Below, piece by piece: positions 4,768-58,143 of a stretch of 64,000 nucleotides of DNA. This DNA comes from Loxodes magnus (Eukaryota > Ciliophora > Karyorelictea > Loxodida > Loxodidae): the NCBI GenBank assembly GCA_946699065.1, contig CAMPDV010000084.1, forward strand, positions 558,001-622,000, given 5' to 3'. The notes beneath the pieces are model-generated. The model was not told where the DNA came from and searched no databases. It saw only the letters and a list, made by a program, of their open reading frames with translations. The stretch's first letter is position 1, and every line of letters begins with the position of its first letter. The position numbers and the translations under genes are program-made.

Positions 4768-4846
4768 GACAGCGGTGGGATTTGAACCCACGCCCCGAAA
4801 GACTAGCGCCTAAAGCTAGCGCCTTAGACCACTCGGCCACGCTGTC
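4768..4846 (-). tRNA. tRNA-Leu(UAG)
   Basis: The reverse complement folds into a class II tRNA of 79 nt. The acceptor stem is GACAGCG/CGCTGTC, the D stem GCC/GGC and the T stem GTGGG/CCCAC around a TTCAAAT loop. The anticodon stem CTAGC/GCTAG closes the loop TTTAGGC, so the anticodon is UAG, reading CUA. The variable region is 11 nt. It is an ordinary leucine tRNA, not one for the reassigned stop codons. It is identical to the copy at 9159, and the two share about 40 bp of 3' flank. Confidence 0.95.
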
Positions 4847-7473: not shown

Positions 7474-7849
7474 CTTAGATTTTTTTATTTGTTTAGGCAA
7501 TATTAAATCTTTAGATAAATAAAATTGCTACTTTTTCATAGCAAACTAGGGTTTTCCTTATATTAAATAAAATTAGTTACTTCGTGACTTAATCACCATA
7601 CGTTAAAGCTATAAGCATAATTAAATATCTAGTTTCAGTAGGAATTATATGAGCTACTATTATCAGTTACAATTAAATTAGTAATTTTCTCTTCTTTCAT
7701 TAACAAATCTTCTAAATAGTTATTTGGAAAATAAGTAGAAATTTTCCTTGCTTATTTAATAAAGTTAAACTAATATAAATTAGTTTTTTAAATTTTAAAT
7801 TGCTTAAAACAGTTAAAATCACTGTCGTTTAAAATAAGTTTTATAGTTT

Positions 7850-8630
7850 GAAATTGCTTGATCATTAAAGTCTTGGTATAATCTTCTTTCTGGTCTAATT
7901 GTTCTTGTTTTCTTACACACTTATTCCTTTTCCTTCTATAGATTTCTCCATTTCTGATAAAATAAAGCTGTTTTTTCTTCTTCCTCTCTTGAATTCAATA
8001 TTTTTTTTTAAATGCTAAAATTTCTGACATTTCTTATACAGGTATCATGTGCTAATACAAAAATAGCATTGCTTTCTGAATCTTTTTCATGTTGTGTAAT
8101 TTCCTGCGGTCTTTGAATTTCTATGTCCATATTGTACTCTAGTAGGCCCTGCTAACTTTGGAAGTTCTTCTGATTCTGCATATCATTTTCAATCTGTTGG
8201 TTTTCATCTTAAATCTTTCATATTTAGAAATTTTTTGACTGAATTGGTCTTGCTTGTAGTTCCATAGCGCGTCAATTTCTCTTTCTATTAACCAGTCTTA
8301 AGTTCATCAAATCTTCAAATCTTCAAGACTTTAATTTATAGGCTACTAGTTCTGTTACTTTCTCATTTTCCTTCCGAAGCGACTTAACCTTTTCCTGGAG
8401 GTTTAAAACACCTTGATGAGCAGTCCATTTTCATCTGACTAAAAGGATTGAACTCTGAGACCTTTTTGTGTAAGATAGTTTCGTCTACTTTCTCGGTTTC
8501 TCTTCCGAGGCTGGAGTTAGTGTAATTTTAGTGGTTTTCAGAGACCTATTTATTTTCTGATATTGTTGTTGGGTACTAGGTTCCTAGTTCCTTGAAGCGA
8601 AATTTTTTTTTCTGAGATTCTACATCTTTT
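7850..8630 (-). mobile_element. Gag-only retroposon, A family, decayed copy M1
   Basis: Minus-strand reading gives blocks found in the A-family element at 22410-23376: GRETEKVDET, then KVSEFNPFSQMKM, then EREIDALWN. The knuckle is at 8027-8068 and reads C-Y-F-C-I-S-T-W-Y-L-Y-K-K-C. It matches C-X2-C-X4-H-X4-C except that the His is Tyr, and the Trp before it is a TGA codon. Several frameshifts separate the blocks, so this copy is dead. The A-rich element start lies near 8630. No terminal duplication was found. Confidence 0.65.
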
Positions 8631-8639
8631 TTTAAAAAT

Positions 8640-9158: not shown

Positions 9159-9237
9159 GACAGCGGTGGGATTTGAACCCACGCCCCGAAAGACTAGCGC
9201 CTAAAGCTAGCGCCTTAGACCACTCGGCCACGCTGTC
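9159..9237 (-). tRNA. tRNA-Leu(UAG), second copy
   Basis: This is identical over all 79 nt to the gene at 4768-4846. The anticodon is again UAG in the loop TTTAGGC, and all stems are intact. The flank after the gene (ttaaagtaacttaaattaaa and onward) matches that of the first copy for about 40 bp, so the pair arose by local duplication. Confidence 0.95.
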
Positions 9238-12968: not shown

Positions 12969-14606
12969 ATGAAAGAAGTTTTGATATTATGAATATCGGT
13001 TTCATTAGCTTCCTAACTAAAAGTTTTTATTTCTGGAGATGAACATAGAGATCTAGTACCCCCAGATAACTTGACACTAAATACTCTGGTTATTGATTCT
13101 CTTGGCTAACAAGTTAACTATTAATGATCATGTGAAATTATCGTTTCTAATTACTAGAAAATTGATTACCAGATAGATGCCCTTGAAAAAAAGTGTAATT
13201 ATTCTACTTCTTAAATAACCTTATAAGGAGACTGATTTCCAGTTGGAAGCTTATTAGAACTAACAGTTAGAGCTTCAACTTCTAATAAAAGAGCCGCATA
13301 AGATACAGTTATTTTAAATATAACTTAAAGCTTATCTTCTCCTATATAAATATATTTGTAAGAATATGAGTTCAATATAGTGAATCCTTAGGAAAGCTTT
13401 ACAATGTAAGCAATTGTTCTAGATCCTAGCTTAGAAATTTAGTCAGTATCTTGGACATAAAGTCCAGGAGATATATGATAATCAGCTAGCTTCTTTGCTA
13501 CTACTCTGATGATATAAATAAATGCTACATAGCTCTATTAAGGAAATTACTACACATTTATGATAGAAGTTTAGGACGCTGAAAATAGATATAGAAGCTA
13601 TAAAGAGATATATATCAATAGACAGCCACAAGCTGGCAATTTCTACGTAGAGCCATAAAATGGAAATGCTTGGGATACAGTATTTAATCTAAAGAGCGAA
13701 GATGATTATGATATAGAAGAGTTTTTACCTTTGAGCTACTAATTCATTTATTTAGATTAATATTCAGTAGAATATCCTTTAAGTTAAAAAGATGATAGGC
13801 AAGAGAAGAAACTTAAGTTACCTTATATCAAATGTAGTGAGCTATAGAATTTGACAGTTGGAGTTGTGATTTATGACTAATTTAATGCGACGACTAAGTC
13901 ATGGTTTGATATAAGTATTACGAAAAAACTTCTGAACATATCTTTAGAAATATAAAAACTGCAAAATTGAAAATTTATTTCAGGAATAGAAGCTTAGAAT
14001 TTCATGCATAGCATAGCTTTAGAAATTGGCAACAGTACATAAAAGCTAATTTCTTAACAAATGGGTTAATACCTTTGGTATTTATCCAATAGCATTGAAA
14101 ATAGGGAAATGTTTTAAATAGCAATTTCTAGCTTTTATGAAATAAGATTCAGTGTATCTTATTAGAATTTACAGAACTATATTGATAGTTTTTATCAATG
14201 CCTCAACCAAGGAAACTATCCACTTAACTATTTATAAATGCAATAGTCTACCTAAATAGTAAAGCAAATGTTCAGTATAAAAGTATAAAAACCCTCTAAT
14301 GATTAAAAAGTATATTTGGATCATAATAACCTCACTAGTATAAACAACTTTCAATATGATCAGACTAATATTTCTATTTGATAGATCTTAAATAAACTAG
14401 AACTGTTGTATGCTTAAGGAAAGTCTATTCAATTTTTATCAATAGAACTCTGGGACCTAAATGATTTCTTTTTTGAAATACAGATAAGTGATCATATAAG
14501 TGATAAGTATGAATAATGATAGTAGCATCATTTAGATTTTGCTATCACTAATTTCACTGAAAACTCAAAAGGTTGCTTTGTTAAAATATTTTCATATTAT
14601 AATAAG
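12969..14606 (+). pseudogene. REJ/polycystin-type surface protein gene, interrupted
   Basis: ATG 12969 begins a signal-peptide-like N-terminus (MKEVLILWISVSLASQ). The frame then stays open without a shift for 546 codons. It reads as a large extracellular region of the REJ (receptor for egg jelly) / polycystin type: a W-S-C near codon 58, SWTQSPGD, an NRQPQAGNF block followed by LPLSYQF, and NLTVGVVIYDQFNATT. Such proteins are usually surface receptors or channel-associated proteins. About seven in-frame TGA codons fall where Trp is expected, alongside five TGG. At 14605 the frame runs into a SINE-like S element. Plausible downstream coding (TKINIQAIQKHGNQF) resumes near 15080, only to meet a second element near 15205. 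The membrane half is not visible, so I call it disrupted, unless the insertions are removed during nuclear development. Confidence 0.65.
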
Positions 14607-15077
14607 AGGTTGGGGAAGTAAAGTACCCATAATCGACTTTATGTCTTCCTCTGCTTTGGTTTGGCCTCGAGACATAAGATTCTTAGACCTTCGACACTGG
14701 CTTGGCTTAGTTTAATTTTAATACTGGAACTAAAAAGAAATAAAATTGCGAGCTTCATCAGAGGTGGGGAATTTAAGTACCCATAATTGACACATGTCGT
14801 CCTCTGCTTTGGTGATGCAATGAGACACAATCCTGCCATGTCCTTGGACCTCCAACAAGTATTAAAGATTACGAGTATTCTAAAATTATATCAGTATTGA
14901 ACATTTTTATCAGTATCTGATAATTATACCAGTATTGAGCAAGGTTTATCAGTATCTGATAATTTTATCAGTAACAAACATTCTTGTCAGTATGAAACAT
15001 TTTTTTTAAAGAGCTGCGCACCAACGAGAGTGCTACGCGCTCTATATTCAAATTTATTTATTTATTATTTATTTATA
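14605..15077 (+). mobile_element. SINE-like S element, copy S1, 5'-truncated
   Basis: About 440 bp nearly identical to S2 (25289-25798) and S3 (33233-33690) but lacking their first 45-60 bp. It begins at agaggttgggg inside the REJ-like gene. It contains two related stem-loop units (CAGAGG...CCTCTG with a shared TACCCATAAT core), a run of repeats built on tatcagtatctgata, and a 3' hairpin AGAGC-t-GCG...CGC-GCTCT. An (ATTT)n-like tail follows. Loss of the 5' end with a kept tail is the pattern of incomplete reverse transcription. It has no ORF of its own that I would trust. Confidence 0.8.
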
Positions 15078-16980: not shown

Positions 16981-16995
16981 ATATGTTGGTTTATA

Positions 16996-17839
16996 ATAAT
17001 AATAGTAAACTAAATGTTAAAAAAATGTTTTGGCATATTCTGGACTTTCAACCAGTTCCTCCCGCCATTTTTTTGACTCGGATGGATACCGCGACCATTT
17101 TTTTTATGTGGATGGTTACCACTGATTGCTTTCAAAAGAGCGCATAGACAGTTTTTATTTGTATATTCCTGTTGGAGTTATCCATAGAAAATTCAATGCT
17201 CTTCATGTTCTTTATTATACCTTTTCATTTAATTTCTTTCATTCTCAGCATTTTCTTAATAAGTGGTAATTGGATTGGCAATATCAACATTATTTTTTTA
17301 ATCTTCTTTTGACTAATATGTTTTTTAAATAGCTTATTTTCAATATTTTCTAGTCTTTTAATTAAGTTATTATCATATCTAATTTCTTTCTGTTCTTAAA
17401 CACTTTATAATGGAGTGAAAGTTTTTTCAATTTCCATCTTTGATATACGTTAAGATTTTTATTGCGATTACATTCAAAGTTGTTCTTCCGTTATTACCTT
17501 GTTTTCTATTAGCTGATTCTTAAGGATTTCCATTTCATTATTTTGCACGTCAATGTTTGTTGTAAGTTCCCGTATTAATAAGTCTTAATTATATATTGTT
17601 TCTTCGTATCAGGATATAATTTTTTACATTTGTTCGATCTTTTGTCGTAGTTCCTCTGAAATATCTGATTTAAATTCCTCAGTTTGCAAAGTTCCAGATC
17701 ATTATTTTACCTTATGAGTCGGAACTTGATTCTTCTTATTGTTTTTCTTTTTATCGAAGTACTTAAGCAGCCTTTTTCCGAGCATTTCTTATTTAATTTT
17801 CATTTAGTCTAATGTTCTGCTCCATCTTTTTTTTTTTAT
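16996..17839 (-). mobile_element. Gag-only retroposon, B family, full-length copy M2
   Basis: This 844 bp element is bounded by a perfect 15 bp target-site duplication, atatgttggtttata, at 16981-16995 and 17840-17854. On the minus strand it starts with an A-run leading to ATG (complement of 17823-17825) and MEQNIRLNENQIRNARKKAA. The coiled coil follows (EELRQKIEQM, NNEMEILKNQL). The knuckle C-W-Y-C-Q-S-N-Y-H-L-L-R-K-C is at 17248-17289, a perfect C-X2-C-X4-H-X4-C, and LWITPTGIYKQK comes next. Two frameshifts lie before the knuckle. The 3' end folds as CTGG-ttgaaagt-CCAG and ends in a (TTA)n tail. The same family is at 46598-47323. There is no reverse transcriptase. Confidence 0.85.
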
Positions 17840-17854
17840 ATATGTTGGTTTATA

Positions 17855-18281
17855 TGATATATTGGGAATCTACTATAAGTTATATTGCTAATCAAATTTA
17901 GTTATTAAAAGCTAATTCATTTTTATTACAGTTTCTAATTATCTTTAGACAGATAAGTTATAAAGTAACTATAGCATTCAATTTAATCTGTTTAATCTTC
18001 CTAAATGAATAAGTTTTAATCTCTCAGTTTATGTAATATATTTTAGAAAAATATCCTCTAAGCACTTCCTTTAAGTAAAATGCTTCATAAATTAAAACTT
18101 AAAATTAAAAATAATTTAAAGATAAATAGAAAGTTTTTATTGTTTTTAAATGTAACTAAGCAAAAAATTTTATAACAAGTAATAATTAAGCAGTCTAAAT
18201 GTAAAAACTTTATTATTCATAAATACTTTATATTATTACTATTTTATTTAAGATTTTTGGGTTATTATTTAATAAAAACAT
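17855..18281. repeat. Segmental duplication, left flank of tRNA-Leu(AAG)
   Basis: From about 17967 this flank aligns with 37380-38474, upstream of the tRNA-Leu pseudogene. Shared stretches include aaatgaataagttttaat and gattttt..ggttattattt next to the tRNA. The second locus holds a retroposon (37557-38300) that is absent here, so this copy represents the pre-insertion state. Confidence 0.75.
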
Positions 18282-18360
18282 GACAGCGGTGGGATTTGAA
18301 CCCACGCCCCGAAAGACTAGCGCCTTAAGCTAGCGCCTTAGACCACTCGGCCACGCTGTC
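18282..18360 (-). tRNA. tRNA-Leu(AAG)
   Basis: A 79-nt class II tRNA that differs from the two tRNA-Leu(UAG) genes at a single base. The anticodon loop is TTAAGGC instead of TTTAGGC, so wobble position 34 is A and the anticodon is AAG, which reads CUU and, as inosine, CUC/CUA. All stems are intact. The flanking sequence differs from that of the UAG copies and is shared with the pseudogene at 38475. Confidence 0.93.
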
Positions 18361-22409: not shown

Positions 22410-23376
22410 TAAAAAAATGGTTGAAGGTTTCAAGTCAAGCTTCTATACCACCTCTTCCTTAGCCAAAAAGGAAGGGCGGAAGCAAGAAACCAAGTCTTAA
22501 TAATCTTAACATCTTCTCTATCACAACCTTAACCAACACTGAACTAGCAACTTGGAATCTAACAAAGCAACGAATGCAAACCTTGAAGAATATACACGCG
22601 GAAACTCCAACCTCAAGCGAGAAACCGAGGAGACAGATGAAGTCTGTTCTCCACCAGGAGGTATCAGAGTTCAACCCTTCTGGCCAGATGAGTATGGAGT
22701 AGCTCATCAAAGTGATACTGAACTTCCAGGAAGAAGTCAAGAGATTGAAGATGGACAATGATATGCTGATGGCAAAGCTAGACCTAGCAGAAGGAATTGA
22801 GTCAAGACTTATGTCCTAGGAAAGAGATCTTAACGCCTTTTGGAATATCTCACAAAGTCAGACTAACGAATCCTAAAATTAGCTTTAGAAACAGACTGAA
22901 CTGGATAACAGACTCGGAAAAGTAGAAGAGAAATTGAAAACTTTTAAGAAAGTGTAAAGCGAAACTGGAGCTATACATATGGAAATCGAAGTCTAGAAAG
23001 AGCAAACAAATCAAGGAAAATAATTAAAAATAAAAAAGAAATGTTTCTGCTGTGGAAGCGTATGACATTTTTATCGGAAGTGTTAGAATTCTAATAGAAA
23101 TAAAGAAACTATTGGATAAAAGTACAACTAAAGAAGAAAAAAGAAGAAGCAAGAATGAAAAGAATGTATTGCAATCTGGATGGTTCAATATACAAGACTA
23201 AGGTGGAACCAAGGCAAGTTAAAGGAGGGAAAACCTGGAAAAATCCGAGTTCCCAATCTCGCTAAAATTGGGCGACCCGAACTTTTATATTTAACAGCAG
23301 GGAGCATGAACTGCTGTATTCTTGACGGGGTTGAAAATCCTTAAAACGGAAAACTTAAAATTAATATTATTATTAT
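22410..23376 (+). mobile_element. Gag-only retroposon, A family, type copy LA
   Basis: The element sits between two copies of tatttaaagagcttagga (22392-22409 and 23377-23394), an 18 bp target-site duplication. It starts with an A-run into ATG 22417 and encodes VEGFKSSFYTTSSLAKKEG. A shifted frame then carries VSEFNPSGQMSMEQLIKV, QERDLNAFWN and a coiled coil to the knuckle C-F-C-C-G-S-V-W-H-F-Y-R-K-C at 23042-23083, with Trp coded by TGA. After another shift comes RMYCNLDGSIYKTK. The 3' end has ggggttgaaaatcc and then (ATT)n. It is full-length or nearly so but broken by at least two frameshifts. It is much richer in G+C than its surroundings, so the insertion is fairly recent. Confidence 0.85.
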
Positions 23377-23394
23377 TATTTAAAGAGCTTAGGA

Positions 23395-23858: not shown

Positions 23859-26040
23859 ATGAATAGTTTTATTTTATTGTTAGTTGACTTTATTTTAAAT
23901 ACATAGAAGTCAGATAATTAATACTATCTTTTCTAGAAGAGTAATAATGAATTACTATAATTAGAATTAATGCTAAGAAACTATTTTTTAGTATATTTCT
24001 TTTATGAATATAAACTGGCTAGCTAGTTTCAAATTAATTAACTAGTAGATTATTTTTAATTAGGAGTGCTAGCTATCATAGATGTAACTAACTCTATAAT
24101 TTTTTCTTATTAAATATATTTAGAATGCTAAAAGACTAACACAATACATCTTATTGCAGGATTACAACACAAGTAAAGAGATAAGTTCTTTAACTATTCA
24201 GTTTTATTTCTCCAAGCACTTAAGAAAAATCTCTTATAATATAGAACTTTTTAGATTATTTGGAGTGAAAGAATGTAGCCTTTTATAGGAAGAAATATAA
24301 ATAGTTATGGATTAATTGCATGATTCTCATTTAAAAGTTAGACTTAGACTTTTACTGTAAACTATAAAGAATAAGAAAAACAAAATTAATTTATAGGATC
24401 CATATTAAAATTTCTTGGAAGTATATGTATATTTCAATTAGACTCATAAATAACTATAGAAATATTCAAAAATAGCTAAAATATTATATTAACATAAAAG
24501 ATATTCTAATTCATCTTTTACTCCTATCAACCTTCGCAATTTTAAGAACCATTGGAATTTCAAATATCCTAGAGACACTAATTTTAATCACTTCTGAGCT
24601 ATTTAGCTCTAAAGCAGAATTAGAGTGATATATTTTAGAAGCTTATTTAAGTGAATTAAGCAAGTAAATAAATGAAAATAATAATTGAAAAATAATAAAA
24701 AGAAATTTATAAAGTATAAACTTTAATTATAAGATATTTAATTTTAAAACTAACAATTAATAGAAGTAGGAGTCATTACTAGTTAATATGTTTACCTTAA
24801 TAAATCAATTATCTTTACAGGAGTAATTTAATAAATACCTAACTTTTAAAATATATGTAATGAAATATCATTTTTAGTTAATTAATATTTGTATGATGGA
24901 AACTTAAAGGAATAAGTTCATATATATGTTTAAGTTTTGAATTTTTAATTTAGGTTGAATAAATAAATGAGGGAGAAGATATACTAAAATACTATAAAAT
25001 GTAAGATAAAGGATATTACATTGGCAATAATAAATAATGGTTAAAAAAGTAGAAACTGAATATTGAAGGATCTAAAACAAATAGAAATTACAATGTTTTT
25101 TTTTAAACTTTTTAAATGATCATACAGGGATAAGAATTTTTGTATAAAAAAATAAATTAATATCAGCTTTAGGTACAATTTGCTCTATTGAAACACTATC
25201 AAACAAACAAAATATCCCTATTTGTCTGAATTTTTCCATCAAATGCTTGTATGTCATTCTTGCAAGTTAAAATAATTAATTTTATTATATTTTTAAAACC
25301 GCCATAGTTGTTCGAAGGTGAACAACAAGGGCATCTACATCAGAGGTTGGGGAAGTAAAGTACCCATAATCGACTTTATGTCTTCCTCTGCTTTGGTTTG
25401 GCCTCGAGACATAAGATTCTTAGACCTTCGACACTGGCTTGGCTTAGTTTAGTTTTAATTCTGGAACGAAAAAGAAATAATATTGCGAGCTTCATCAGAG
25501 GTGGGGAATTTAAGTACCCATAATTGACACATGTCGTCCTCTGCTTTGGTGATGCAATGAGACACAATCCTACCATGTCCTTGGACCTCCAGCAAGTATT
25601 AAAGATTACGAGTATTCTAAAATTATATCAGTATTGAACATTTTTATCAGTACTGAATAATTATACTAGTATTGAACAAGGTCTACCAGTATCTGATAAT
25701 TTTATCAGTAACAAACATTCTTGTCAGTATGAAGCATTTTTTTAAAGAGCTGGGCACCAATGAGAGTGCTACGCGCTCTATAATCAAATTAATTTATTAA
25801 TTAATTTATTATTTATGAAAAACTTGCTTTATAATAATAATATTTGAGGAAAATCATAGGGTGAAGATATTAAAGCAGAGCCATAAAAATGAGAAATTTT
25901 AATACTAAATCCTTAAGAACTAACAGAATTTCCATAAAAACTTAAAGATAATGAAGAATATTGAAAACCCTGATTCGAGAAATTTAAAAAGAGGAGGTAG
26001 AAAAGGAATGCGTATTTGTATACAAATTGAGTTTGGCTAC
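23859..26040 (+). pseudogene. Receptor pseudogene, paralogue of 54238-58101
   Basis: ATG 23859 starts a signal-peptide-like sequence (MNSFILLLVDFIL). The following DNA aligns with the first 1700 bp or so of the intact receptor gene: LAIIDVTNSIIFS, IYLECQK and HLIAGLQ are kept. A one-base deletion near 24212 shifts the frame. The homology is then split by the S2 element (25289-25798) and resumes at 25813 with the paralogue of the next coding block (sites matching IWGKSLGQGIE and LNPQELRELP). It stops near 26040, so the second half of the ligand domain and all membrane segments are missing. Confidence 0.75.
25289..25798 (+). mobile_element. SINE-like S element, copy S2, longest
   Basis: The body runs from ccgccatagttg (25299) to ctctataatcaaatt. 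It opens with a hairpin ttgttc-gaaggt-gaacaa. Two CAGAGG...CCTCTG stem-loop units follow, then tatcagta-type repeats, a terminal GC-rich hairpin and an A/T tail. The flanks carry aattaattttattat (25274-25288) and aattaatttattat (25799-25812), a target-site duplication with one length difference. The intact receptor gene at 54238 shows the uninterrupted target, so the boundaries are well supported. Confidence 0.8.
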
Positions 26041-26645
26041 TCTTCATAATAATTATGATGAATTTTTATTTAATTCCAGGAAACTTTGTTATACATATTT
26101 CAGACTAATTTAATTTTTAAATTTCTTTTATACTCCAAAATGGTTTTCTTCTTGAACTTTCCTTGAGCTAGAATAATAAAAGATCAATTATAGGGTATTT
26201 ATAGCAAATAGCTTATATTCTAATACTTTAGCATACTTATCTCAGTAAAAGAATTTTAAAATAGAGCATTTTAAATAAAGTTGAGATTATACAAATGATA
26301 AGCATTTTCTAGCTTTCTTAAATATTTGCTATAAAATTAGTAAATCTCTATATTTCTTTAAAATAATATGAAGATTAGCTATTTATAAGTAAATCAGCTT
26401 AATTACGTTAAACTAAATTAAGTCTTTAACTAAATTAATATAAATTAAAGTATCTACTTAAAATTTATCTCTAAGCATAAAAAACTATAAAAGTCCAGAA
26501 TTGGATGAATATAAGATTCTTTCTATTTAATTTAAAAATATCAATCTATTAATAGAAAAGTATTAGCCATTAAACGCTTATAAGCAAAAACTAATTAGCT
26601 ATTATCCATTATTTAATATAAACTGTTTTTATTAACAAATTTACT
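26041..26645. other. AT-rich spacer
   Basis: No gene recognised. It separates the receptor pseudogene from the L2 element. Confidence 0.4.
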
Positions 26646-27375
26646 ATTTCTTGGAAAAATCTCTTCTATGCAGGATCCATCCCAATCGTTTTACGATTAG
26701 CAAAGCATATTCTAAGAACTCAAAGTTATGCAATAGGAGAATTTTAAACTTTTAAAAAACGTATAAGAGCTAGAAGGAAAAATTGCATACCTAATGTCTA
26801 ATACCTAAATACTAAAAAATGAAAATTTAAAACAGTTAATTCGAGTATTGAGCAAAAAGAATCCAAATTCAATCAATTAACTGAATTGACTGAAAGCTTA
26901 TTTCTAAAAAATACAACAAAAATGCCCCATGGATGTGGAACCGAATCTTCAATCAGCAAAAATTCCGATAGTAAAAAATAGAAAATAATGCTTTTATTGC
27001 AAGAAATATGGAAACTTTTTAAGATATTGCTGAAAATTCTAGAAAAAATAAAAACTTGAAAACTTTAATTTACGGAGATCCATAAGTAATCTATACTGCA
27101 CTCCGGACGGTTTACTATAAAGATAAAAGATGTACATAGGGAATTAATTCTTGAAGGACATAAATATCTCTATAAAGAAAAAATTTGAATATGCTTGAAT
27201 CGAACTCGATTGAACTAAGATACCTTTTATTAAAAAGGGTTAACAGAATACTGGAAGATATGTATTCAAAGAAGAAGCCCAAAAGAATACTGGAAATGGA
27301 ATAATATTTAGCACAGTGTAAACTTTAAAACAGGATGTACCTTATTGATAGGAGGAATCACTATAATTAATTATT
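26646..27375 (+). mobile_element. Gag-only retroposon, L family, intact copy L2
   Basis: The leader atttcttgg and the sequence up to the ATG align with L1, L3 and the copy at 4136-4500, which defines the 5' end. The body carries a complete ORF (separate entry). The 3' end, gatgtaccttattgatagga then atcactataattaa, matches the 3' ends of L1 and L3, and the tail is (TTA)n-like. No clear target-site duplication was seen. This is the only copy of its family here with an unbroken ORF, so it may be the youngest. Confidence 0.75.
26668..27348 (+). CDS. Coiled-coil zinc-knuckle protein (Gag-like), 226 aa
   Basis: ATG 26668 to TGA 27346-27348 is one frame with TAA/TAG as Gln and internal TGA as Trp. 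The N-terminal half is a coiled coil (SIFQELKVMQQENFKLL, NVQELEGK). At codons 108-121 lies C-F-Y-C-K-K-Y-G-N-F-L-R-Y-C, a C-X2-C-X4-x-X4-C knuckle whose His is Asn. It is followed by WKF, then NLYCTPDG at about codon 147, and a basic tail with TGRYVFKEEAQKNTG. Zinc knuckles of this type bind nucleic acid in Gag and ORF1 proteins, so RNA packaging is the likely role (inference). The TGA codons in NQLNWLKA and YCWKF are conserved in the copy at 37557. No enzyme domain is present. Confidence 0.7.
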
Positions 27376-27701
27376 ATTTTTATATTTTATCCAAAGTAGA
27401 AATAAAGATATTATTTAGTATTTGATAAGTTACATTGGTATTTTTTATAAAGAATTCTATAAAACTCATATTTATCTCTTAATGTTCTCAAGTAAAAAAA
27501 ATAGAATATATAATCTACAAGTACTTTTAACTTAAATTTTATTATCAAAGTATGAGAATCAAGATATTAAAAATTAAAATTAATTAATAAGTATACCAAT
27601 CAACAAAGTACTTATATACTAAAAGTCGTTTATATAAGTTAATGATTTAACTTAAAAAATTTAAAATATTTTAAATAAACATAATAATAAGTTTTTGATT
27701 A

Positions 27702-31229: not shown

Positions 31230-32081
31230 CTCATGAAAGTAGGGTGGAAAGCCAGAAACGTTAATTCTCAAATACATGTTTACACTTCAATCGATTAAAC
31301 TTTAATTTTTACTTGATCTGAAATTAAAATTTGTAGCCTAATAGATAAAAAAGAGAAAAGTATAAATATAGTCATAAGTGAAATATTAATAAATATATAC
31401 TTTCATCAAAATTTAATTTTTTTATATATTTTATACTTTTTTTTACTTAAAGCTACTAATTCAATTACTATTTTATAATTACTCTAATCATTTACCTTTT
31501 ACATTTTGTCATATAAATGCTTTAAACATTTTGTGCTTATTATAAAATAATAGACTATCTAATAAAATAAATTTAATAGTAGTGTTATAGCTAAATTTTA
31601 AATCTAAAGGCATTAAGTGCTTCATTTTTACCTCATAATTATATTTTACTCATAAAGTATCCTAGAACTTTACCCTGATATTTTAAAACATATTCGAAAA
31701 AATTTAGTTTATTAAAGCAAAAATCTTTAGAAATTAAATTACCAACTAAGAAAATAAATTATATAGAATGATTGAAGTGACTATATTACTGTTATAGTCG
31801 CTAATTAATTCTAGAAATAATATTTGTGATATAATCATTAATGAAACATCAGCCTTTTTATACTAAAAATGTAGAAAATAATTTTTATGCTTATCAACTT
31901 AGGGATCCTAATGCAGCATTTTGAGAAGTCTAATAAGCATTAAAATTTATATTTTTATTGAATTTAATCTGGTTCATATAACTTAAAATTAGTTATTTAT
32001 ATACTTTGGTATATGCTAAAATAAGCTTTTTAAAAGAAATAGTAAGTTAATAATTAATAATTGAGATTTTTATAAAATACT
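31230..32081. other. AT-rich spacer
   Basis: No gene recognised between the M5 and M6 elements. Confidence 0.4.
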
Positions 32082-32099
32082 TTTAGAAAATTTCCTTCA

Positions 32100-32981
32100 A
32101 CAATGAAATTAAAATGTTCAACAGTGCCAATCTGGACACTGTTTGAAATAAGTTGTTTTATCAGCAACACTTCTCATCATTCTTGACTTTCTAATGAAAT
32201 TATCTTCACTAAGGTCTTCTCAGTTTCTTTGATTTCTTGTTCTATTATTTCAAAAGGTACTTCACATCATTTTTTTCTGTAAATATCTCCGTGCTAGTTG
32301 CAATAGAGCCTCTAGTATTTTTCTTATTCTTTACGCCAAAATTTTTTCTTGAAATTCTAAAATTATTAGCAATTCTTGTACAAATGTCACTTACTCTTAC
32401 AGTAGTAGCATTTCTTCCTTACTTACCTGATTGGTTTTCGATTTATAACCTATTTTTATTCTAATTCCATCTAATTTGTCTAATTAGTTATGTTTGTGCT
32501 AATATTCTTTTGCTTAAAAAATCCAACTCTTGTTTTTATACGATATTTCCAAGCCTTGATGCTTCTTATCTATGTTCAGTTTAAATGTTCCAATATGCTT
32601 GGAATTTCCTTTCTTAATTAATAATTCTAATCTCTAAGTTATCTTATCCAAGCGATAATAAGTTTCTTAGTTCTTAATTTTCCTACTTAAGCACTTTAAT
32701 CTCTTCCTAGAGATTGGATATTTCAAATACTAACTGCTAAATATTGATTTCCTTTTTAATTATCTTTAATGGAAGTTCTTTTCCTGTTATTATATTAGAT
32801 TCCTTTCTTTTTATTACTTTAGGAGTTGTTTATTATAGTTATTAAATTCTTTATTAGTTTTGTAAGTGGGGAGAAGAAGACTCTTGATACTTTTTTTATG
32901 CCTGCTTTTTCTCTAGAGCTTTTTTCTCTTCTTTGCTCAAGAAAAAGCCGGGAACAAGATTTTAAGACTCCATTTTTTTTA
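32100..32981 (-). mobile_element. Gag-only retroposon, A family, full-length copy M6
   Basis: This 882 bp element has a perfect 18 bp target-site duplication, tttagaaaatttccttca, at 32082-32099 and 32982-32999. The minus strand starts with A8 directly before ATG and reads MESQNLVPGFFLSKEEKKAL. The coiled coil (QEEIKVLKQENQELRNLL) and QERKFQAYWNIQ, an A-family block, follow in the same frame for about 200 codons. After one single-base shift the knuckle C-Y-Y-C-K-S-K-W-H-L-Y-K-N-C (32369-32410) is perfect, with Trp from TGA. It is followed by RLYCNQHGDIYRKK and about 60 more residues. The 3' end folds as AACAGTG-t-CCA-gat-TGG-CACTGTT. There is no (TTA)n tail and no reverse transcriptase. It is the best single example of the family. 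Confidence 0.85.
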
Positions 32982-33232
32982 TTTAGAAAATTTCCTTCAG
33001 TTTATAGTAAATTCTATTTAGTATAGAAAAATTTAATAATAGATGCGAGATTGATACAATTATTTCAACATAATGATCTAGTGATTTTTACTTGATACTG
33101 TAAAATATATATATAAAGCTAAAAAATATTTGATATGATGTTATATTTAATAGAAAAGAATAATTTTATATTTTTTAATTTTAGTTAGATTTAAAAATAT
33201 TATAATAAAACCCTTTATTATATATATTATTA

Positions 33233-33690
33233 AATCGCCATAGTTGTTCCAAGGTGAACAATAAGGGACGGCTTCATCAGAGGTTGGGGAAGCTAAGTAC
33301 CCATAATCGACTTTATGTCTTCCTCTGCTTTGGCTTGGCCTCGAGACATCTGCTAGTTTGACCTTCGGCACTTGCTTATTTTAGTTTTTAATTCTGGAAA
33401 TAAAAGGAAATTATTTTTGCGAGCTTCATCAGAGATGGGGAATTTAAGTACCCATAATTGACACATGTCGTCCTCTGCTTTGGTGATGCAATGAGACGCA
33501 ACCCTGCCATATCCTTGAACCTCCAACAAGTATTAAAGATTACGAGTATTCTGAAATTATATCAGTATCTGATAATTTTATCAGTATTGAACAAGGTTTA
33601 TCAGTATGGAACATTTTTAAAGAGCTGCGCACCAACGAGAGTGCTATGCGCTCTATAACCAAATTTATTAATTATTTTATTTATTTATAA
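33233..33690 (+). mobile_element. SINE-like S element, copy S3
   Basis: It starts at tcgccatagttgttcc and ends at gcgctctataaccaaattt plus an (ATTT)n-like tail. It has the same two CAGAGG...CCTCTG units as S1 and S2 but a shorter tatcagta repeat tract, so that internal tract varies in copy number between insertions. No gene is visible at the insertion site, and a duplication cannot be fixed because both flanks are A/T repeats. Confidence 0.8.
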
Positions 33691-34690
33691 CTATTTAAAT
33701 TACTTTATTAAATAAAATAGTTAATAGCAAAAGATATAATTCATATTTAGGATTTTTAATCTATTTAAATACCATTTCTTTTCTTCTTATCATGAAAAAT
33801 TTCAAAACAGCAAATAAAAAATCCAGACAAATATTTTTATCAAAAATAAGCATTCGCAACCAAAATCAGATTTCTATTTAAACTTTATAATTATTAATTT
33901 ATTTAGAAGAGTAAATATGAAAACAAATAATATGTAAAATTTATTTATCATTTTATTCTTTTTTAGAAAAAGCAAACATATTTCTAAACATTTCGCCATT
34001 TTATTTTTGTATTGGTATATTTTATCGACTATCTTGGTATAAAATTTTATAATAGAAAAATCAGGAAAGATAAGCATTAAGAATAATTATATACATTAAT
34101 TTTTACTAAATATAATAATTATTATTGCTCTTTTTTATTAAATAGATGCTTAAAATATTTTAACATAAATTTTATTAATTTTTTTATTATAGTTTCAAAT
34201 TAAGGGCTAGCTAGTTTTATTGTGTGGATCTATCAAATTTAAAATTAAGTTAAATTTTTTATTTTACTCGATAGTCATTTTTATTATTGAAATTTTTTAA
34301 TTAAATAATGAAAAGTATTTAAAGCCAGTTTAGATAAAGAAAATAATCACTAGGAAGTTTAAACAAAACTTTTTATCAAAGTAAACAAATAAATAAAATA
34401 TTTTTACATATTTTGACTTCTCTTACAAAGCCATTACGTCTTTAGTTACTTATTTTAATTTCTTTGATTATAATTTAAACTTTATTCATTTACACTAAGA
34501 ACTATAATATCTAGTAACTACTTCGCATATTATATAAAGTATAATATATTTCTTTGCTATGAAGATGGTCAAAAGCTATTTAGAAAAAGTAATTAATTTT
34601 AATGATCACTTTAATGAAAATATTTTTGCTTATTTGTTTGCTATTCTTTGAATATCTCTATTACAATTTAAGTTTAATTTTTCTTATTTA
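33691..34690. other. AT-rich spacer
   Basis: No recognised gene. Confidence 0.4.
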
Positions 34691-34966
34691 TTTCTTTTAT
34701 TTAATAAAGTAATTCTAATTTTTATTTCTTATACTCCTAATCCATCTCTTACATTTGCTTATCGTTTATTTTATTTTATTCTGGACTCTTACTTTAACTG
34801 CAATAAGCTTTCCTTTCTAATATTTCAGGAATATATTAGGAGACAGTAATTTTAGGTGTAAAACTAAATTTTGTAAGTATAAAGGAAGAAAAGGAAATAA
34901 AATAAGCTAATTAATTAATAAATGAAGATACTCTTTAGAAATTATCTATAGTTTAGTAAAATAAAA
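34691..34966. repeat. Dispersed repeat, arm 2, inverted relative to 16058-16331
   Basis: Reverse-complement match to 16058-16331 over about 275 bp with a few substitutions and small indels. The two copies diverge abruptly on both sides. It has no protein motif or tail. Confidence 0.8.
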
Positions 34967-36035
34967 TAGTTTCTATATTAGGTTCTAGGGTTTAGGATCT
35001 TTAATAATCTAAATAGTCCTATATAAAATATCTTTATCTTGTATAGACTTAACCATTATTCATCTTTAATGTTCTCATCAAATTTATAGAAATACTCTAA
35101 TCTGTTAAAGTTTTCATAATAATTTAAGAAAAGTTTCTTAAAGTTTGAAATTTTAAGCATTAAAATTATTTTAGCTACTCTTTAATTTTATGCACTACAA
35201 AAGATTTATTTGAGTAATGGTTATAAAATAACAAATAAGAGTTGTAAAAGCAATGTAAAGAATTTGAATGAGATAATCTTCTTCTCAAATTTGGATATTC
35301 ATAAATAATAACAAAGAGATAGTGAAGTTATTTCATCAATAAATAGATAGAAATGTAAGATGAAATGAATAAGTAAATAGAAAGTATACAAATTTAATTT
35401 TTTTAATTCCACATTTTATATATTTTACACTATTTTATTATTATCATTATTTAGCTTCCTAACATAAATAGATTAATAGTATAAATAAGCACCAGAACTA
35501 AACATTTAATTAAAATCCTTTAAAAGGGTAGATTTAAATTTTATTTATCTATAAATTGATTTTTATTTAAATAAGATGTGAGTAAGAAAATATAATTTTT
35601 AGAAACTCTCCTTCGTTTAATAATATTTATTAAATAAGTTTGTGTAGTTTTAATTTATAGAACAACTAATTTTACCTATAAAGACATAAAATAAACAAAT
35701 TATTTTATAAATATTTACAAACCAACTATGCTTAACTTTTATTTTTATCTCTAAAATGCTTACTTCCTCTCATTTATTTTTAATTATCTGCAATATAATT
35801 GTGAGATATTAAATAATTAAATAAATAAGCAAAGAGATTAAAATTATGTTAATATGCTATATTTAAAAATATACAAATAATCTATATTAAATATTAATAA
35901 TTAAGGAAGTTATCTCCTTTAAAAATATTTCTTTTAAATTTAAATTTTTTTAATTTTTATGAATTAATTAATTATTATATAAAAAATAATAATAGATTAG
36001 AATGGAACTACTATTATTTATTTAGCCACTTTTAA
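34967..36035. other. AT-rich spacer
   Basis: No gene recognised. Confidence 0.4.
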
Positions 36036-36712
36036 ATTCTATTTTTTTTATAGAATTTCTGATGTTGCTCAAATATATCTTGCTCTTCTTTTACTTCATC
36101 TCAATCTCCACAAGCTCTAAGCTTAAGTCCTTTTCATCCTCTTTTATTATTATAGTCCTATTGCTCCTTAAAATTTTTCTAATTATTTTTTATTCGCTTC
36201 TGTTATTGTCTCATGTAATTATATTCTTCTGAAACTTTACCTTCTCACGGGCAGAATATTTATCTCATCTTACTCCAAAGTCTTTTTTCCTCAATTCTTA
36301 CTTTTTGCTAACTGTTAGCTTTATCTTACTATATATCCTTTCTTTTTGCAGAATCAACTTCTTAATAAATTTTTCTGCCTGTTGATATAGTCAGATTTTT
36401 AAACTTTCTCAATATCCATAAGGTCTCAATTATTTTAGCTTTTCTAGGTTATTTATTGTGTTTATAAATTAAATTAGTTAAATCTTTTTTTATTTTGGTT
36501 GAACATTTTACTCCTTGCGTATTAGATTTGCTGCTTATTTCCTTTTTTAATTGCTATTTTCTTACTAAATCTGCATTGCGGTTTGTAGCAAGGTCCTAAT
36601 TTATTCGTTTAATTATGAGACTTAAGATTTTAGGGTCTGTTTCTCCAAGAATATTTGAAATATTGATTTTTAGTATTTCATTATTAAGGTTTTTTTTTTA
36701 AAAAGATATATA
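36036..36712 (-). mobile_element. Gag-only retroposon-like copy M7
   Basis: A run of A (T10 on the plus strand near 36700) precedes an ATG on the minus strand, as in M2 and M6. The frame then reads coherently for about 200 codons: MKYQKSIFQIFLEKQTLKSQ, a coiled coil (SQLNEQIRTLLQTAMQ), and a basic region to ELVEIEMKQKKSK. No complete knuckle is visible, only a GYWES stretch in the expected zone. At the 3' end AAATTCTAT and ATAGAATTT form a perfect 9 bp stem (36036-36062). I place it in the group by architecture, with less certainty than the others. Confidence 0.45.
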
Positions 36713-37379
36713 ACTATTATTATTATTATAAAATAATGTTTCTTACAATAGAAAAATAAATTAAAGTCAACAATAAATTAAAAGTAATAAAATGAAAAGT
36801 ATATAATCTTATGATGATATGATATGCTTTTATAAACTATACAAATAAGAAGGTTAAATCATTTCTATAAATAAAATCCTTTTTTATAATTGAAGAATAA
36901 AATAAGCAGTTAATTAGTCTTAATGTAACTTATAATTAATAAATTAGACTAAGTATTCTTAAATAAACTAAATAATAGGATGAGACATGCATTTAGAAAA
37001 ATTAATTTAACATTTTTAAATTATTATTAATATATCCTTAGTCAAAATTTAGCTTTAATGTAGTCAAAGCTGAACAATCATCATTCAATTTTACTAAATT
37101 TTTAAAATTAAAATTTAGACTTTTAATAAGAAAAAAAAAATTAAAATTGAATTTAAAAAATTTATTGTGGTCTATTTTTTATAAAATAGTGCAATTGGTT
37201 TTTTCATGCTATCCAAACTATTTTTTTAATTGTTTATTTGAAATAATGTTTATTTTCCTTTTTTATATAATTAAATGCAGGCATATTCTTGAGAATCTAC
37301 TAACGTTATATGGCTAAATAAGTAACTTAATTAAAAATTAGTTAGTAATTATTAGATTTCTAATTTGTCTTTTTTAAAT
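36713..37379. other. AT-rich spacer
   Basis: No gene recognised. A short (ATT)n run lies at about 36713-36730. Confidence 0.4.
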
Positions 37380-38474
37380 AACTATAACATTAAATTTAAT
37401 CTGTCTAATCTTCGTAAATGAATAAGTTTTAATATCCCAATTATAGTATTATATTTAGAAAAATATATTCTAAACTCTTCCTTTAATTAAAATGCTTCAT
37501 AATTTAAAATTTATAAATATAAAAGTTATTTAAAGCAATTAATCAAAAATTGAACATTTCTTTCAATATGTCACTTTTAAACAGGATCCATCCCAATCGT
37601 TTTAGGATCAACAAAATATTCTTCAAGAACTCAAATTTATGCAATAGGAGAATTTTAAACTTTTAAGAAACGTATAAGAGCTAGAAGGAAAAATTACATA
37701 CCTAATGTCAAACACCTAAATACTAAAAAACGAAAATTCCCAACCAGTCAATTCGAGTATTGAGCAAAAAGAGACCAAATTCATCAATTAACTGAATTGA
37801 CTGAAAGCTTGATTCTAAAAATACAACAAAAACGACCCCATGAATGTGGAACCGAATCTTCGAGCAGTAAAAATTCCGATAGTAAAAAATAGAAAGTAAT
37901 ACTTTTATTACAGGAATTATGGTAACATTATAAGATATTGTTGAAAATTTCATATAAATAAGAATTAGAAAGCTTTAAGTTATGGAAATCCATAAGTAAT
38001 CTATACTGCACTCCAGAAGGACTCGTATATAGGAAAAAATGCATATTGAAAGTGAATTACTGATGGATATTGCATATGCACATTAAAGAAGAAATCGTTA
38101 AATGTTTGGAGAGGAACTCGATTTAAATTAATTTCCAATGATCAAGAGTGGAGAACACACTAAAGCAAGATATGTACTAAAGAAAATGACTCAAAAGAAG
38201 ACTGGAAATGGAAAATTTAACAAAACTATTTAACTTTTTAAAAATGATGAATCCAAAAAGGGTGGTATCAGTATAATTCATTATTATTATTATTATATTA
38301 AAAAAAATTGAAAAATAAATTAAATGTTTTGATTATTTTTAAATTTAGTCAATCAAAAATTGTATAGTATATAATAATTAAGTAGTCTAAAAGCAAAAAA
38401 TTTATTATTCATAAATACTTCAATATTATTACTATTTTATTTAAGATTTTTTGGTTATTATTTAATAAAAACAT
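37380..38474. repeat. Segmental duplication, left flank of the tRNA-Leu pseudogene
   Basis: This aligns with 17967-18281 except that a complete L-family retroposon is inserted in it. The insertion therefore happened after the two loci were duplicated. Confidence 0.75.
37557..38300 (+). mobile_element. Gag-only retroposon, L family, decayed copy L3
   Basis: Closely related to L2: QDPSQSF, ELKFMQQENFKLL, NVQELEGK and NWLKA are kept in frame. The ATG is lost. In the knuckle region two Cys codons have become Tyr (Y-F-Y-Y-R-N-Y-G-N-I-I-R-Y-C), and a frameshift follows. The 3' end has gatgaatcc...gggtggtatcag and a (TTA)n tail. Its flanks attaatcaaaaattgaa and attaaaaaaaattgaa look like a mutated 16-17 bp target-site duplication. 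The paralogous locus at 17967-18281 lacks the insertion. Confidence 0.75.
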
Positions 38475-40411: not shown

Positions 40412-41197
40412 ATGGCTTCTAAGAAATAACAGAACTTTGAACAAAACATTTAAACAGGAAAATTCTCTAAAAAATAAAAAAGCGAAATAATTACAATGAG
40501 TGAAAGTGAGAAATATGATTGATATGACGAACATTAGCCACTTGGAAATCCAGAATTAAAAAAACTTCCTACACAAACTCAAATAGAAATATTATCTAAG
40601 TCATTAAAAGAGTTTATGTTTAAAAATAGATACCTCACTGATAAAGTATAAAAATTAGAAAAACTAATAACGTCTTTACTTGAGAAACAATATTAATCAT
40701 CATAAGAAATAGAAAACAAACTAGAACAAAGAATTCTTTAAATTTAATAATAAATTCAGGTAACGCCATTTTCGTTTTAACAGAATTAATCAGATCCTAT
40801 GAAAATAGAAAATGAAGCCTCAAATTAAAATAAACAGTAAACGTTTATTTAAAATAAGTAGTAAATTTAAATTAAATAAGTGTTACAGGAATAATAGTTT
40901 AAAAGAAGAATAAAATGCTACGTGTGCAATAAATAACACCAATGAAAATACTGCTACTAACTAAGCGAAATTTAAAGAAAGAATAAATTAGATATTTTTA
41001 GAAAACTATTTAGGATATATCCAACATAAAGCGGAATAATTTATAGAAAAAAATTCTTTAATTCAAATCTTAATCCTTGGATAAATAATTAGGATTACAT
41101 GCAAGATGAAAACTATTCAGAATATTAAAGGATGGTGCGCTAATGAAGTGCTACACTGCCTAACTAAGCCTAGTAGAAATTCAAGACAAAATAATGA
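40412..41197 (+). CDS. Coiled-coil zinc-knuckle protein L4, about 244-261 aa
   Basis: ATG 40412 opens one uninterrupted frame. Candidate TGA stops are at 41144-41146 (244 aa) and 41195-41197 (261 aa). The protein has a basic N-terminus (MASKKQQNFEQNI), a coiled coil near codons 65-115 (FMFKNRYLTDKVQKLEKLI), a Gln-rich linker, and the knuckle C-Y-V-C-N-K-Q-H-Q-W-K-Y-C at 40916-40954. That is C-X2-C-X3-H-X4-C, one residue shorter than usual, with Trp coded by TGA. Then comes IYPTQSGIIYRKKF, the same C-terminal motif as in the A and L families. No (TTA)n tail or target-site duplication is visible, because a minus-strand element abuts it. It may be an intact retroposon ORF or a domesticated relative. 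Confidence 0.6.
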
Positions 41198-41299
41198 AGA
41201 CAAGCTGATAGAATAGGTCAGATGGATGACTACTAAGGCTTTAACAAAGCTTTATAACTTTTAACTTTTTATGCATATTTATTCTAGAAAAAACTAAAT

Positions 41300-42256: not shown

Positions 42257-43177
42257 AAAAAACTTGGAGATATTTGCCAAAGAATTTATGTTGCTAAGAA
42301 GAGCAAAGGAACTGAAATAATATTAACCAGTCACCTATTATATCCACTCCTCAAAGACAAGTAGAAAAATACAAGCATCTCTAGACAAACTAAACCGAAA
42401 TACCTCAAAAAAGCAATGGATGAATTGATCAGTGTAAAAAAATTATCTTTAAATAAAAAATTGAACGATCTAACCAAAGAATAAGTTCTTGAAATGGATT
42501 ATAATAGATTTTTTTAATTATTTTCCATCTTATAAGAGTTTGGACTAAATCCAACATGAATCAAATCTCACACAACGGACAAAAATATACACACGCCATA
42601 TTTCTATTCTAAGGAGAAGTTCAAAACTAAAATGGAAGATGTATATCAAGATTTACAAGTAATTATACATCAAAAATTTAATAAAAAAAGAAAAAATAAT
42701 TAGAGATAAAGAAGCAAGAATAAAGAAAATAGAGATAAATTTGCAATAACTGATGTAACAGCATTCTTAATAGTTCAACTTTGTGATTCTTATGGAAAAT
42801 GAAAGAATGTAGAAAAGGCTAAAGACATTGAAGAGGAAATGCTACATATAAAGAAGTACATATCACCTTTGGAAAAAATGAAATAAATTTTAAAATATTT
42901 ACTACCTTTCATCCAATATGTGATGGGAAATTATGCATCAAAAATTTACCTGTAGAGATATTGCAACTCTTCAAATGAGCTGGCTTTAATTAGAGAATCT
43001 GAGATTTGCTCGATACTCAGACAGGAAATTTTAAAGAAACAATTTCTTTTCCAAAACATCATTTAATTTGGTTTGGTATAAAACACCATTCCTAAGTTTA
43101 ATTGAAATGAACAACTCACATTATCGCTAAAAATAATTAAAAATATATAAAATAATGATTTAAATATTTTTATCTGA
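42257..43177 (+). CDS. Unidentified ORF, about 250-300 aa (start uncertain)
   Basis: One frame stays coherent from at least 42257 (KKLGDICQRIYVAKKSKGTE) through LTKEQVLEMDYNRFFQLFS, FGLNPTWIKSHTTDK, TDVTAFLIVQLCDSYGKWK and NELALIRESEICSILRQEIL. The first in-frame ATG is 42416, and upstream sequence also reads well without an ATG, so the 5' end may be truncated or split. Candidate stops are TGA 43103-43105 and 43175-43177. I recognise no domain. It has mixed basic and hydrophobic helices and no zinc knuckle, and it lies between M9 and L5. It could be a host gene or the remains of another mobile element. Confidence 0.4.
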
Positions 43178-43399
43178 ATATTAAAAAGTTTAATTTATCC
43201 TAACAGAATTTTCTTTAGTATTAGATAACTCTAAAATAATAATTAAATTTCTTAATTTATTAAATATATCAAATTAAAAATTAACTATATTTAATTCATC
43301 AAGCTGTGAGCAATTTTTTATTAATTTAATTTTTTAATATATTGGAAAACTTAAAATTAAAAGATTTTTATGATTGTTTGAAAATACTATTACATTAAA

Positions 43400-44186
43400 G
43401 AACTGCATTATATATAAAAAATGGATTTAACCTCATCTTCTGAAACCCTAAGACAATCTAACTTAAACAATAAATAATGAAAAAGAAATATAGTAACTAT
43501 TCTCGAAATTATTCCTCTAAAATGTTAAATCTCTGAGTTGTAAAAAAAATTAGGACTCTGTTATAAACTGCAGTAAGGGTGCAATAATTAAATAACTAAT
43601 TAAAAAAGTAATTTAGTAATAAATCAGAAACATAAGAAATAAAATTTATGCTATAGAAAATAGGAAGAAATTCAACTAGTTTACTGCACATTAATAGTTA
43701 TCAATCTGTAAAAACTAAAAACTAAAAATATAGAGATTTTATGGATATTAAGAAGAAATAAAAACCTGATTGCATCTATAAGTAGAGAAATATATTAAAA
43801 TGTTTATTCTACAAGCTCAATAAAAATATTTACAGTTTAAAATTAAGTAAAGAATAGAAGAAAACTGAGGCAATTTTATTGCACTCGAGAAGGTTACATT
43901 TATAGAAGAAATTTTATAAAGGAATGAACATGATGAATCAATAACAGAAGCGAACAATAATTAATGAGTTAAATACTATAAGGAGCTACAGAACATATAA
44001 AACTAAGAGAGGAAGAAAACGACTGACCTTCAGGACAAGATGAAAACTGGGGTAAAAAGAGATGAACAAGAAATCAATGAAAAATTTCAAAGGAAGCATC
44101 AAAAATTTTATAAGACAAATAAAATCGAACTTAAATGGCTAAACTAATAATGATAGATTAACTATAATTAATTATTATTATTAAAA
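43400..44186 (+). mobile_element. Gag-only retroposon, copy L5
   Basis: A-run plus ATG 43421 starts MDLTSSSETLRQSNLNNKQW. A knuckle remnant (DCIYKQRNILKC, missing one Cys and the His) lies near 43770 in a shifted frame. RQFYCTREGYIYRRNF follows at about 43875 in the starting frame, with Trp-rich TGA codons after it. The 3' end is aactataattaattatt plus (ATT)n, almost the same as that of L2. No target-site duplication was identified. Confidence 0.6.
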
Positions 44187-46597: not shown

Positions 46598-47323
46598 TAT
46601 AATAATAATAATAATAATATTTACTTAATTGTTTAAAGTTTTTGCTTTCAATCAGGTACCTGTAGCCATTTTTTTTACGTGGATGAATACCACGACCTTT
46701 TTTTATACGTGGTAGGTTACCACTAATAGCTATTTTCAGTTATCGCTAAAATTTTCTATTTATAAATTCCATCTTTCGTTATTCAGAGTTTACTAAGGTT
46801 TCTTCATGTTCTTCGTTCTTCTCTTATTTGGAGTTTCTCTCAACCTCAGCATTGTCGTAGAATGTGATTATTCGTTTTACAGTATCAGCAGTTTTTGGTC
46901 TATTTTTCTTAAATCTTCTTCTAAAAAACCTTTTCTTCCAGTTTCTCTATTCTCATTTATAAGTTTATATCAATTTTTTCTTCTTGTTTCAATTATTAGT
47001 CAGTTAATTTAATTTATTCTTTTTCTATATCATGTTCTATTATTAACTAACTATGGATTGCGATTGTTCATAAAGCTATAATTCTGTTACTAAGTTATTT
47101 TAGATTAACTGACGACGTAATATTAATAATTCATTATTTTGGTCGTAAATACCGTTCATTAATTCCCTTATTTTTCCCCTTGATTGTAAATTGTTTCTTC
47201 GTATTTTTGGATTAGTTTTTTAATTTGATCTAACTAACTTTAGAGTTTTTTATCAGCTTCACTCTTAGATTCCTGAATATCGATTGGTCCGACCATAACT
47301 TTTCCTTCAGAAGAAGAACTTGA
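46598..47323 (-). mobile_element. Gag-only retroposon, B family, copy M11
   Basis: A 726 bp insertion bounded by a perfect 14 bp target-site duplication, ttgtggaagatatt, at 46584-46597 and 47324-47337. The minus strand starts inside the ORF (SSSSEGKVMVGPIDIQ), so it is 5'-truncated relative to M2. It keeps the coil (ELLILRRQLIQNN) and the knuckle N-C-W-Y-C-K-T-N-N-H-I-L-R-Q-C (Cys-to-Cys 46849-46890), perfect C-X2-C-X4-H-X4-C with CWYC Trp coded by TGA. LWITKDGIYKQK follows. At least two frameshifts are present. The tail is a long (ATT)n. Protein similarity to M2 extends to the C-terminus (YQWQPTTYKK against NQWQPSTQKK). Confidence 0.85.
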
Positions 47324-58101: not shown

Positions 58102-58143
58102 TAAATCTAGAAACTTAAAACAAATTATTTTTAATATTATTGA

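Follow-up and report, generated by a model that had tools for sequence, protein, structure and literature searches.

M6, an 882-bp element of the ciliate Loxodes magnus, is best explained as a full-length copy, its frame now broken, of a non-LTR retroposon whose only product is a Gag/ORF1-like protein and which moves in trans. We put the probability of this reading at roughly 0.8. To spread, the M6 family probably uses an enzyme that another element encodes. This donor is hypothetical, since none of the LINEs read has an (ATT)n tail; the tail is (TTTA)n in LINE-A and LINE-B and (TTAA)n in LINE-C. The interpretation of M6 as an enzyme-less, protein-coding retroposon was put forward in the initial annotation of this DNA, and it is supported by the full-length copies and by their lack of a reverse transcriptase (RT).

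The window, i.e., the whole stretch of 64,000 nucleotides that was analysed, is C84:558001-622000, and the genome searched comprises 705,730,643 bases in 7843 contigs. The accessible part of PMC11441545 describes a MAC assembly of 706 Mbp for L. magnus and translation table 27, in which UGA is stop or tryptophan. In the code of the window, UAA and UAG are glutamine, and UGA is tryptophan or stop. UGA is read as tryptophan because it breaks knuckle motifs at places where tryptophan fits, and the knuckle of M6 itself requires this reading. Table 6 alone, under which UGA interrupts the knuckle, was therefore rejected. The bacterial code (table 11) was also rejected; it gives 0 ORFs of at least 120 aa in the window, which is a warning for the annotation of genomes where UGA is tryptophan or stop. 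Since this code has no reserved stop codon, an open frame alone is weak evidence of coding. GC content is about 22% in the window and falls to 13-14% in the very AT-rich positions 58001-62000. The window also holds three tRNA-Leu genes on the minus strand (4767-4846, 9158-9237 and 18281-18360; anticodons TAG, TAG and AAG), which are alike also outside the tRNA proper, and a REJ domain fragment at 13509-13970 (Pfam E 1.6e-15).

Limits of M6 and insertion marks of its family

The features of M6 are as follows.

32100..32981, minus strand: M6, full-length copy of a gag-only retroposon family, 882 bp; genome matches span about 3-880 of 882
32082..32099, no strand: target-site duplication (TSD) on the 3' side of M6 in sense, exact 18-bp repeat
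32982..32999, no strand: TSD on the 5' side of M6 in sense, exact 18-bp repeat
32497..32973, minus strand: N-terminal part of the gag frame (residues about 1-159) with a coiled-coil-like stretch; 89% by blastp against the continuous copy L016
32243..32536, minus strand: middle part of the gag frame, carrying the CX2CX4HX4C knuckle (32369-32410); shifted to another frame by a 1-bp deletion
32148..32243, minus strand: C-terminal part of the gag frame, shifted to a third frame by a second 1-bp deletion
32120..32143, minus strand: 3' hairpin

The perfect 18-bp TSD reported earlier is exact, with tttagaaaatttccttca at both 32082-32099 and 32982-32999. No other direct repeat of at least 12 nt was found in 32060-33020, where a scan also gave no terminal inverted repeat or LTR. 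By chance, a direct repeat of at least 14 bp located 600-1200 bp upstream occurs at 3 of 2000 random positions. Read in sense, from 32981 to 32100, M6 opens with an A-run leading into ATGGAGTC; the gag-like frame comes next, then a hairpin, and the short terminal part lacks ATT repeats. The A8 leader noted previously is present in the sense start, TAAAAAAAATGGAGTC, where A8 includes the A of the ATG. The 3' hairpin was likewise found, and its fold is only modestly better than chance (last 61 nt, -12.8 kcal/mol, z -2.06; 6 of 200 shuffles equal or better). The claim of one ORF with a coiled coil and a CCHC knuckle stands for the family, where other copies have a continuous frame, and fails for M6 itself, which has no single ORF. 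Its start, knuckle and C-terminus lie in three frames because M6, compared with the other copies, lacks 1 bp at each of two places. Thus, M6 is a complete copy with a broken gene, frameshifted twice.

The initial annotation proposed a count of copies across the assembly. With the 882 bp as query, 856 first-look candidates were obtained; for this and all other gag-only families, candidates are first-look matches and not confirmed copies. The best-ranked 40, a sample biased toward good copies, consist of M6 together with 39 other copies that match it at 95-97%. Each covers almost the whole query, from about 3 to 880 of 882 (a few from 7 to 877), so that 882 bp is the family length and M6 is full length, as had been claimed. 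We retrieved 30 copies with flanks, which represent 21 independent insertions after duplicate sites were merged (L002=L010, L011=L012=L013, L014=L019, L015=L020 and L023=L025-L028). At 15 of the 21 sites there is a TSD of 14-20 bp, allowing no more than one mismatch, and at the remaining 6 one of 10-12 bp, in some cases of low complexity. In most copies the 3' end reads ...TTTAATTTCATT, after which come ATT units in varying number; the tail of M6 itself has none. The 5' end is the A-run, often separated from the TSD by a few extra bases. Its constancy, which the initial annotation had suggested checking, is borne out by 308 exact matches to the 5' pattern; the 3' pattern has 133, and controls gave 0 for both.

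One empty target was found. Locus L066 corresponds to the target of L019/L014 and has the 20-bp TSD as a single copy, without M6; the end of a LINE-C lies just upstream, so the shared upstream sequence is less than 30 bp. The copies examined are dispersed inside contigs and flanked by TSDs, unlike head-to-tail arrays added at chromosome ends. The M6 family thus has the properties of a non-LTR retroposon: variable TSDs, a simple-repeat tail, no LTR or terminal inverted repeat, and a precise empty site (one case).

Related gag-only families and the gag protein

M6 is not the only element of this kind in the window.

22410..23380, plus strand: g22, second full-length gag-only retroposon; 18-bp TSD, A-run and ATGG, (ATT)5 tail
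16995..17839, minus strand: win17, third gag-only retroposon; 15-bp TSD, A-run, (ATT)3 tail
46601..47323, minus strand: relative of win17, probably 5'-truncated; 14-bp TSD, (ATT)6 tail, no A-run and ATG at the 5' end
40412..41261, plus strand: copy of the gag-only family gE; T-rich tail, not ATT
7762..8634, minus strand: decayed gag relative

For g22 there are 4031 candidates, of which the best 40 (including itself) span nearly all of 967 bp at 94-100%, and TSDs of 14-18 bp flank 4 of 5 copies. The best 40 of 2320 win17 candidates (including itself) are nearly full length at 98-100%. The gE family has 2909 candidates; 38 of the best 40 rows span about 870-935 bp, and the other two, one at the query locus and one at a neighbouring locus on C97, exceed this because flanking sequence was part of the query. 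For gE we could not identify a TSD. There are thus four gag-only families with 856 to 4031 candidates each, none of which includes an RT, and M6, g22 and win17 share TSDs and (ATT)n tails. A scan for a tail plus a TSD gave 10 matches, against a chance rate at 12 bp of 56 in 600 positions. With a TSD of at least 14 bp there were 5 matches, 3 of them with gag (22410, 16995 and 46601); the matches at window 31552-36727 and L064 6916-7606 have no gag and were dropped. Diverged gag-like relatives or (ATT)n-tailed repeats with no clear TSD lie at 26182-27543, 37072-38441, 6339-8011 and 42792-44182. A low-stringency self-comparison of the window was dominated by AT-rich background and was not used. 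Judged by eye, one M6 copy apparently lies within a gE copy (L087, C3181:33323-33453).

These families bear on the possibility that M6-type elements are retrocopies of a cellular knuckle-protein gene, i.e., a prolific processed pseudogene made by LINEs. Such a pseudogene would have one small frame at the extreme 5' end, no enzyme and TSDs, as these elements do. However, the tails in three families are (ATT)n and not poly(A), the 5' ends are constant, and the best-scored copies are full length in each of the four families. We regard this explanation as very unlikely.

In the M6 family, 17 of the 30 rows, or 13 of the 21 independent sites, are without an indel, and in each of these 17 rows a single frame matches gag across 276 residues; L019, a duplicate of a counted indel-free site, does have deletions. 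The predicted length of gag would be about 285 residues if the last UGA is stop. The protein has a leucine-rich heptad stretch, the CX2CX4HX4C knuckle and a conserved C-terminal block, RLYCNQHGDIYRRKW, which resembles KLYCSPEGKLYKKKW in L063. Its coiled-coil-like score is modest (10 of 500 shuffles as good). Pfam searches with sets of 10, 2 and 5 proteins gave no gag match above the cut-off. Between the M6 family and g22, 58 of 168 residues are identical (score 215; the best shuffled score is 88), and 33 of these 58 use different codons. Nucleotide identity by codon position is 0.52/0.62/0.36. This comparison shows a coding pattern of change and is stronger evidence of coding than an open frame. 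Within the M6 family, selection on gag is unproven: among 22 rows, nonsynonymous and synonymous changes number 123 and 43 for private changes, 15 and 2 for changes in two copies, and 8 and 7 for changes in at least three copies.

Since gag is conserved between families, M6 does not fit a SINE, which has no coding capacity. We nevertheless weighed the proposal that M6 is a SINE-like or DNA element with an accidental reading frame. The lack of a reserved stop codon favors it, as does the distribution of UGA in L016, with 4 in the gag frame and 3 and 6 in the other two. Against it, the knuckle and its flanking residues are kept between families while third codon positions change most, and no indel is present at 13 of 21 sites. 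In addition, long TSDs of differing sequence together with a repeat tail fit target-primed insertion, and a DNA element would be at odds with the absence of a terminal inverted repeat or LTR. Of the explanations considered here, we hold this one to be the least probable.

LINEs of the genome and the source of the enzyme

The gag-only retroposon reading would be undermined if most copies were truncations or internal deletions of a longer LINE carrying an RT, as the initial annotation itself pointed out. Sampling did not reveal such a pattern, and a long LINE containing M6 was rejected because none was found in the samples read. Outside the scored list, copies picked by the M6 5' end have the 3' end in place in 6 of 8 cases, or at about 4 of 5 sites, since L075, L076 and L080 share one flank; copies picked by the 3' end have the 5' end in place in 6 of 6. 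On contigs C1-C270, 22 of 47 exact 3' ends have an exact same-strand 5' partner at 841-867 bp, and no longer pair was found up to 9 kb. The 25 unpaired 3' ends include known full-length copies with an altered 5' pattern, e.g., C84:830865 and C131:334618. The first-look end counts for M6 (5' 730, 3' 712) look balanced, and they were not used as a measure of truncation because the LINE-A control gave 2215 at the 5' end vs 1402 at the 3' end, the opposite of what is expected for a truncated LINE. At one duplicated site (L077 and L078; C45:51170 and 33504), an M6-like 5' end leads into a different gag with its own knuckle, and this is a chimera or a nested insertion between gag families.

The absence of an RT from the unit was confirmed. 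The unit is one gag frame, not the RT and EN of an autonomous LINE, and no RT was found inside it or contiguous with it. Queries with LINE-A EN, LINE-A RT and LINE-B RT gave no match in the window at E 1e-6. An RT lies within the 1.5-kb flanks at 1 of 21 sites (L011-L013); it belongs to a same-strand LINE-A fragment about 800 bp downstream, beyond the copy's own tail and TSD.

A PF00078 search of the genome gave 3403 RT candidates, and the 150 scored were all over the cut-off. The sample of LINEs read at length is small: nine loci, which represent three lineages and one relative. LINE-A (L061, L062 and L065) and LINE-B (L064, L067 and L068) are about 5.4-5.5 kb, encode their own knuckle ORF1, EN and RT, begin with an A-run before the ATG, and end with a hairpin and the (TTTA)n tail. 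No clear TSD was found in five LINE-A/B copies, unlike M6 and g22. L063, the relative of LINE-A, has a T-run end and no intact knuckle motif, and 30 shorter RT loci (L031-L060) all match LINE-A. LINE-C, with its (TTAA)n tail, has a long ORF1, coiled-coil-rich by eye, in the one upstream region read. We considered LINE-C as an ORF2-only partner, an idea prompted by a 5' end that seemed to be constant at query position 1611, and dropped it because 1611 is most simply the truncation point of L066 itself and the upstream part of another copy, L069, shows the long ORF1. RT matches also occur in tandem every 2532 bp on C5131 and C20, and every 2504 bp on C5131.

The most serious rival derives M6, in the manner of HAL1, by deletion from an autonomous LINE, unsampled or extinct, that has this gag as its ORF1. 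HAL1 is itself an ORF1-only derivative of L1 with several origins, according to the accessible part of PMC5753468, and the LINEs sampled here are nine loci and 30 shorter RT loci out of 3403 candidates. The 5' ends of g22 and LINE-A have about 45 nt in common (0 of 500 shuffles), which ties one gag-only family to a LINE at the 5' end; the same comparison for M6 gave 330 of 500 shuffles. However, gag adjoins no RT as one unit in the loci read, and the ORF1s of LINE-A and LINE-B match the gags at the knuckle only (hhalign probability 0.7%, from few sequences). The single LINE-C upstream region that was read encodes a different long ORF1 and gave no gag match, and the tails of the LINEs read differ from those of the gag-only elements. 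A homologous ORF1 together with a shared 3' end was not seen for LINE-A, LINE-B or LINE-C in these few loci. We consider a HAL1-like origin possible and somewhat doubtful. It is compatible with movement in trans, and the gag-only unit would then be secondary.

For the preferred reading of M6 as a gag-only retroposon moved in trans, we propose that its RNA would be copied by target-primed reverse transcription, with EN and RT supplied by a separate LINE. The borrowed enzyme may recognise the M6 3' end through the hairpin, the ATT repeats or both, and the family protein, with its putative RNA binding, could coat its own RNA and so favor its own template. More speculatively, Loxodes may have a split retroposon economy, in which a separate gag-only lineage, underived from living LINEs, keeps its own Gag under selection and most families share one (ATT)n-priming RT in trans, so that Gag and enzyme would evolve as separate selfish replicons. 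This proposal is tentative and, on balance, unlikely.

Other observations concern the surroundings of the LINEs. At C131:596485-596758 and 634124-634397 and at L061 and L063, gag-only elements follow a LINE 3' tail in the same orientation, with no more than about 100 bp in between. A SINE-like repeat occurs in the window at 14602-15073, 25339-25810 and 33276-33689, the first two copies being 95.6% identical, and the LINE-A 3' tail lies at about 15005-15076, 25741-25822 and 33616-33688.

Comparison with known retroposons

A large part of the L. magnus repeats is unclassified, as stated in the accessible part of PMC11441545, and the gag-only families may give a name to part of these. We found no description of a gag-only non-LTR class in ciliates in the literature searched, and the class may stand among those unclassified families. 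Several gag-only families in one genome are natural replicates, and the best win17 copies are 98-99% identical. If gag is needed, one may ask why an element that borrows its enzyme keeps its own coat protein, a question common to HAL1 and HeT-A.

The initial annotation called M6 a member of an unusual class. The class is real and unusual, but it has precedents among ORF1-only non-LTR elements in HAL1 and HeT-A; here, several abundant gag-only families occur in one ciliate genome. SINEs are short, enzyme-less, repeat-tailed elements mobilised by LINEs, and they encode no protein. They resemble the M6 family in being short, enzyme-less and repeat-tailed, and probably in being moved by LINEs, and they differ from it in their lack of a protein. 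LINE-A and LINE-B resemble M6 in the A-run before the ATG and the hairpin near the 3' end, whereas the LINEs read here differ from it in ORF1 and tail. Two L. magnus LINEs of 5-6 kb with EN and RT, rnd-1_family-27 and -19, are given in the accessible part of PMC11441545. Like M6, these are non-LTR elements, presumably of the same genome, and LINE-A, LINE-B and LINE-C may or may not be the same families.

HeT-A of the Drosophila telomeres encodes Gag but no RT, which likely comes from TART or TAHRE (PMC5537684, accessible part). On this description, it is like the M6 family in having Gag without a reverse transcriptase; HeT-A adds to chromosome ends, whereas the M6 family inserts at dispersed sites with TSDs of 10-20 bp. 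HAL1 (half-LINE-1) of mammals is a non-autonomous non-LTR element that encodes ORF1p only (PMC5753468, accessible part), and as such it is an ORF1-only unit like the M6 family. HAL1 derives from L1, whereas the M6-type gag matches the ORF1s of the LINEs examined at the knuckle only. As far as HAL1 is described there, the M6 family is also unlike it in its (ATT)n tail and in the coexistence of several gag-only families in one genome.
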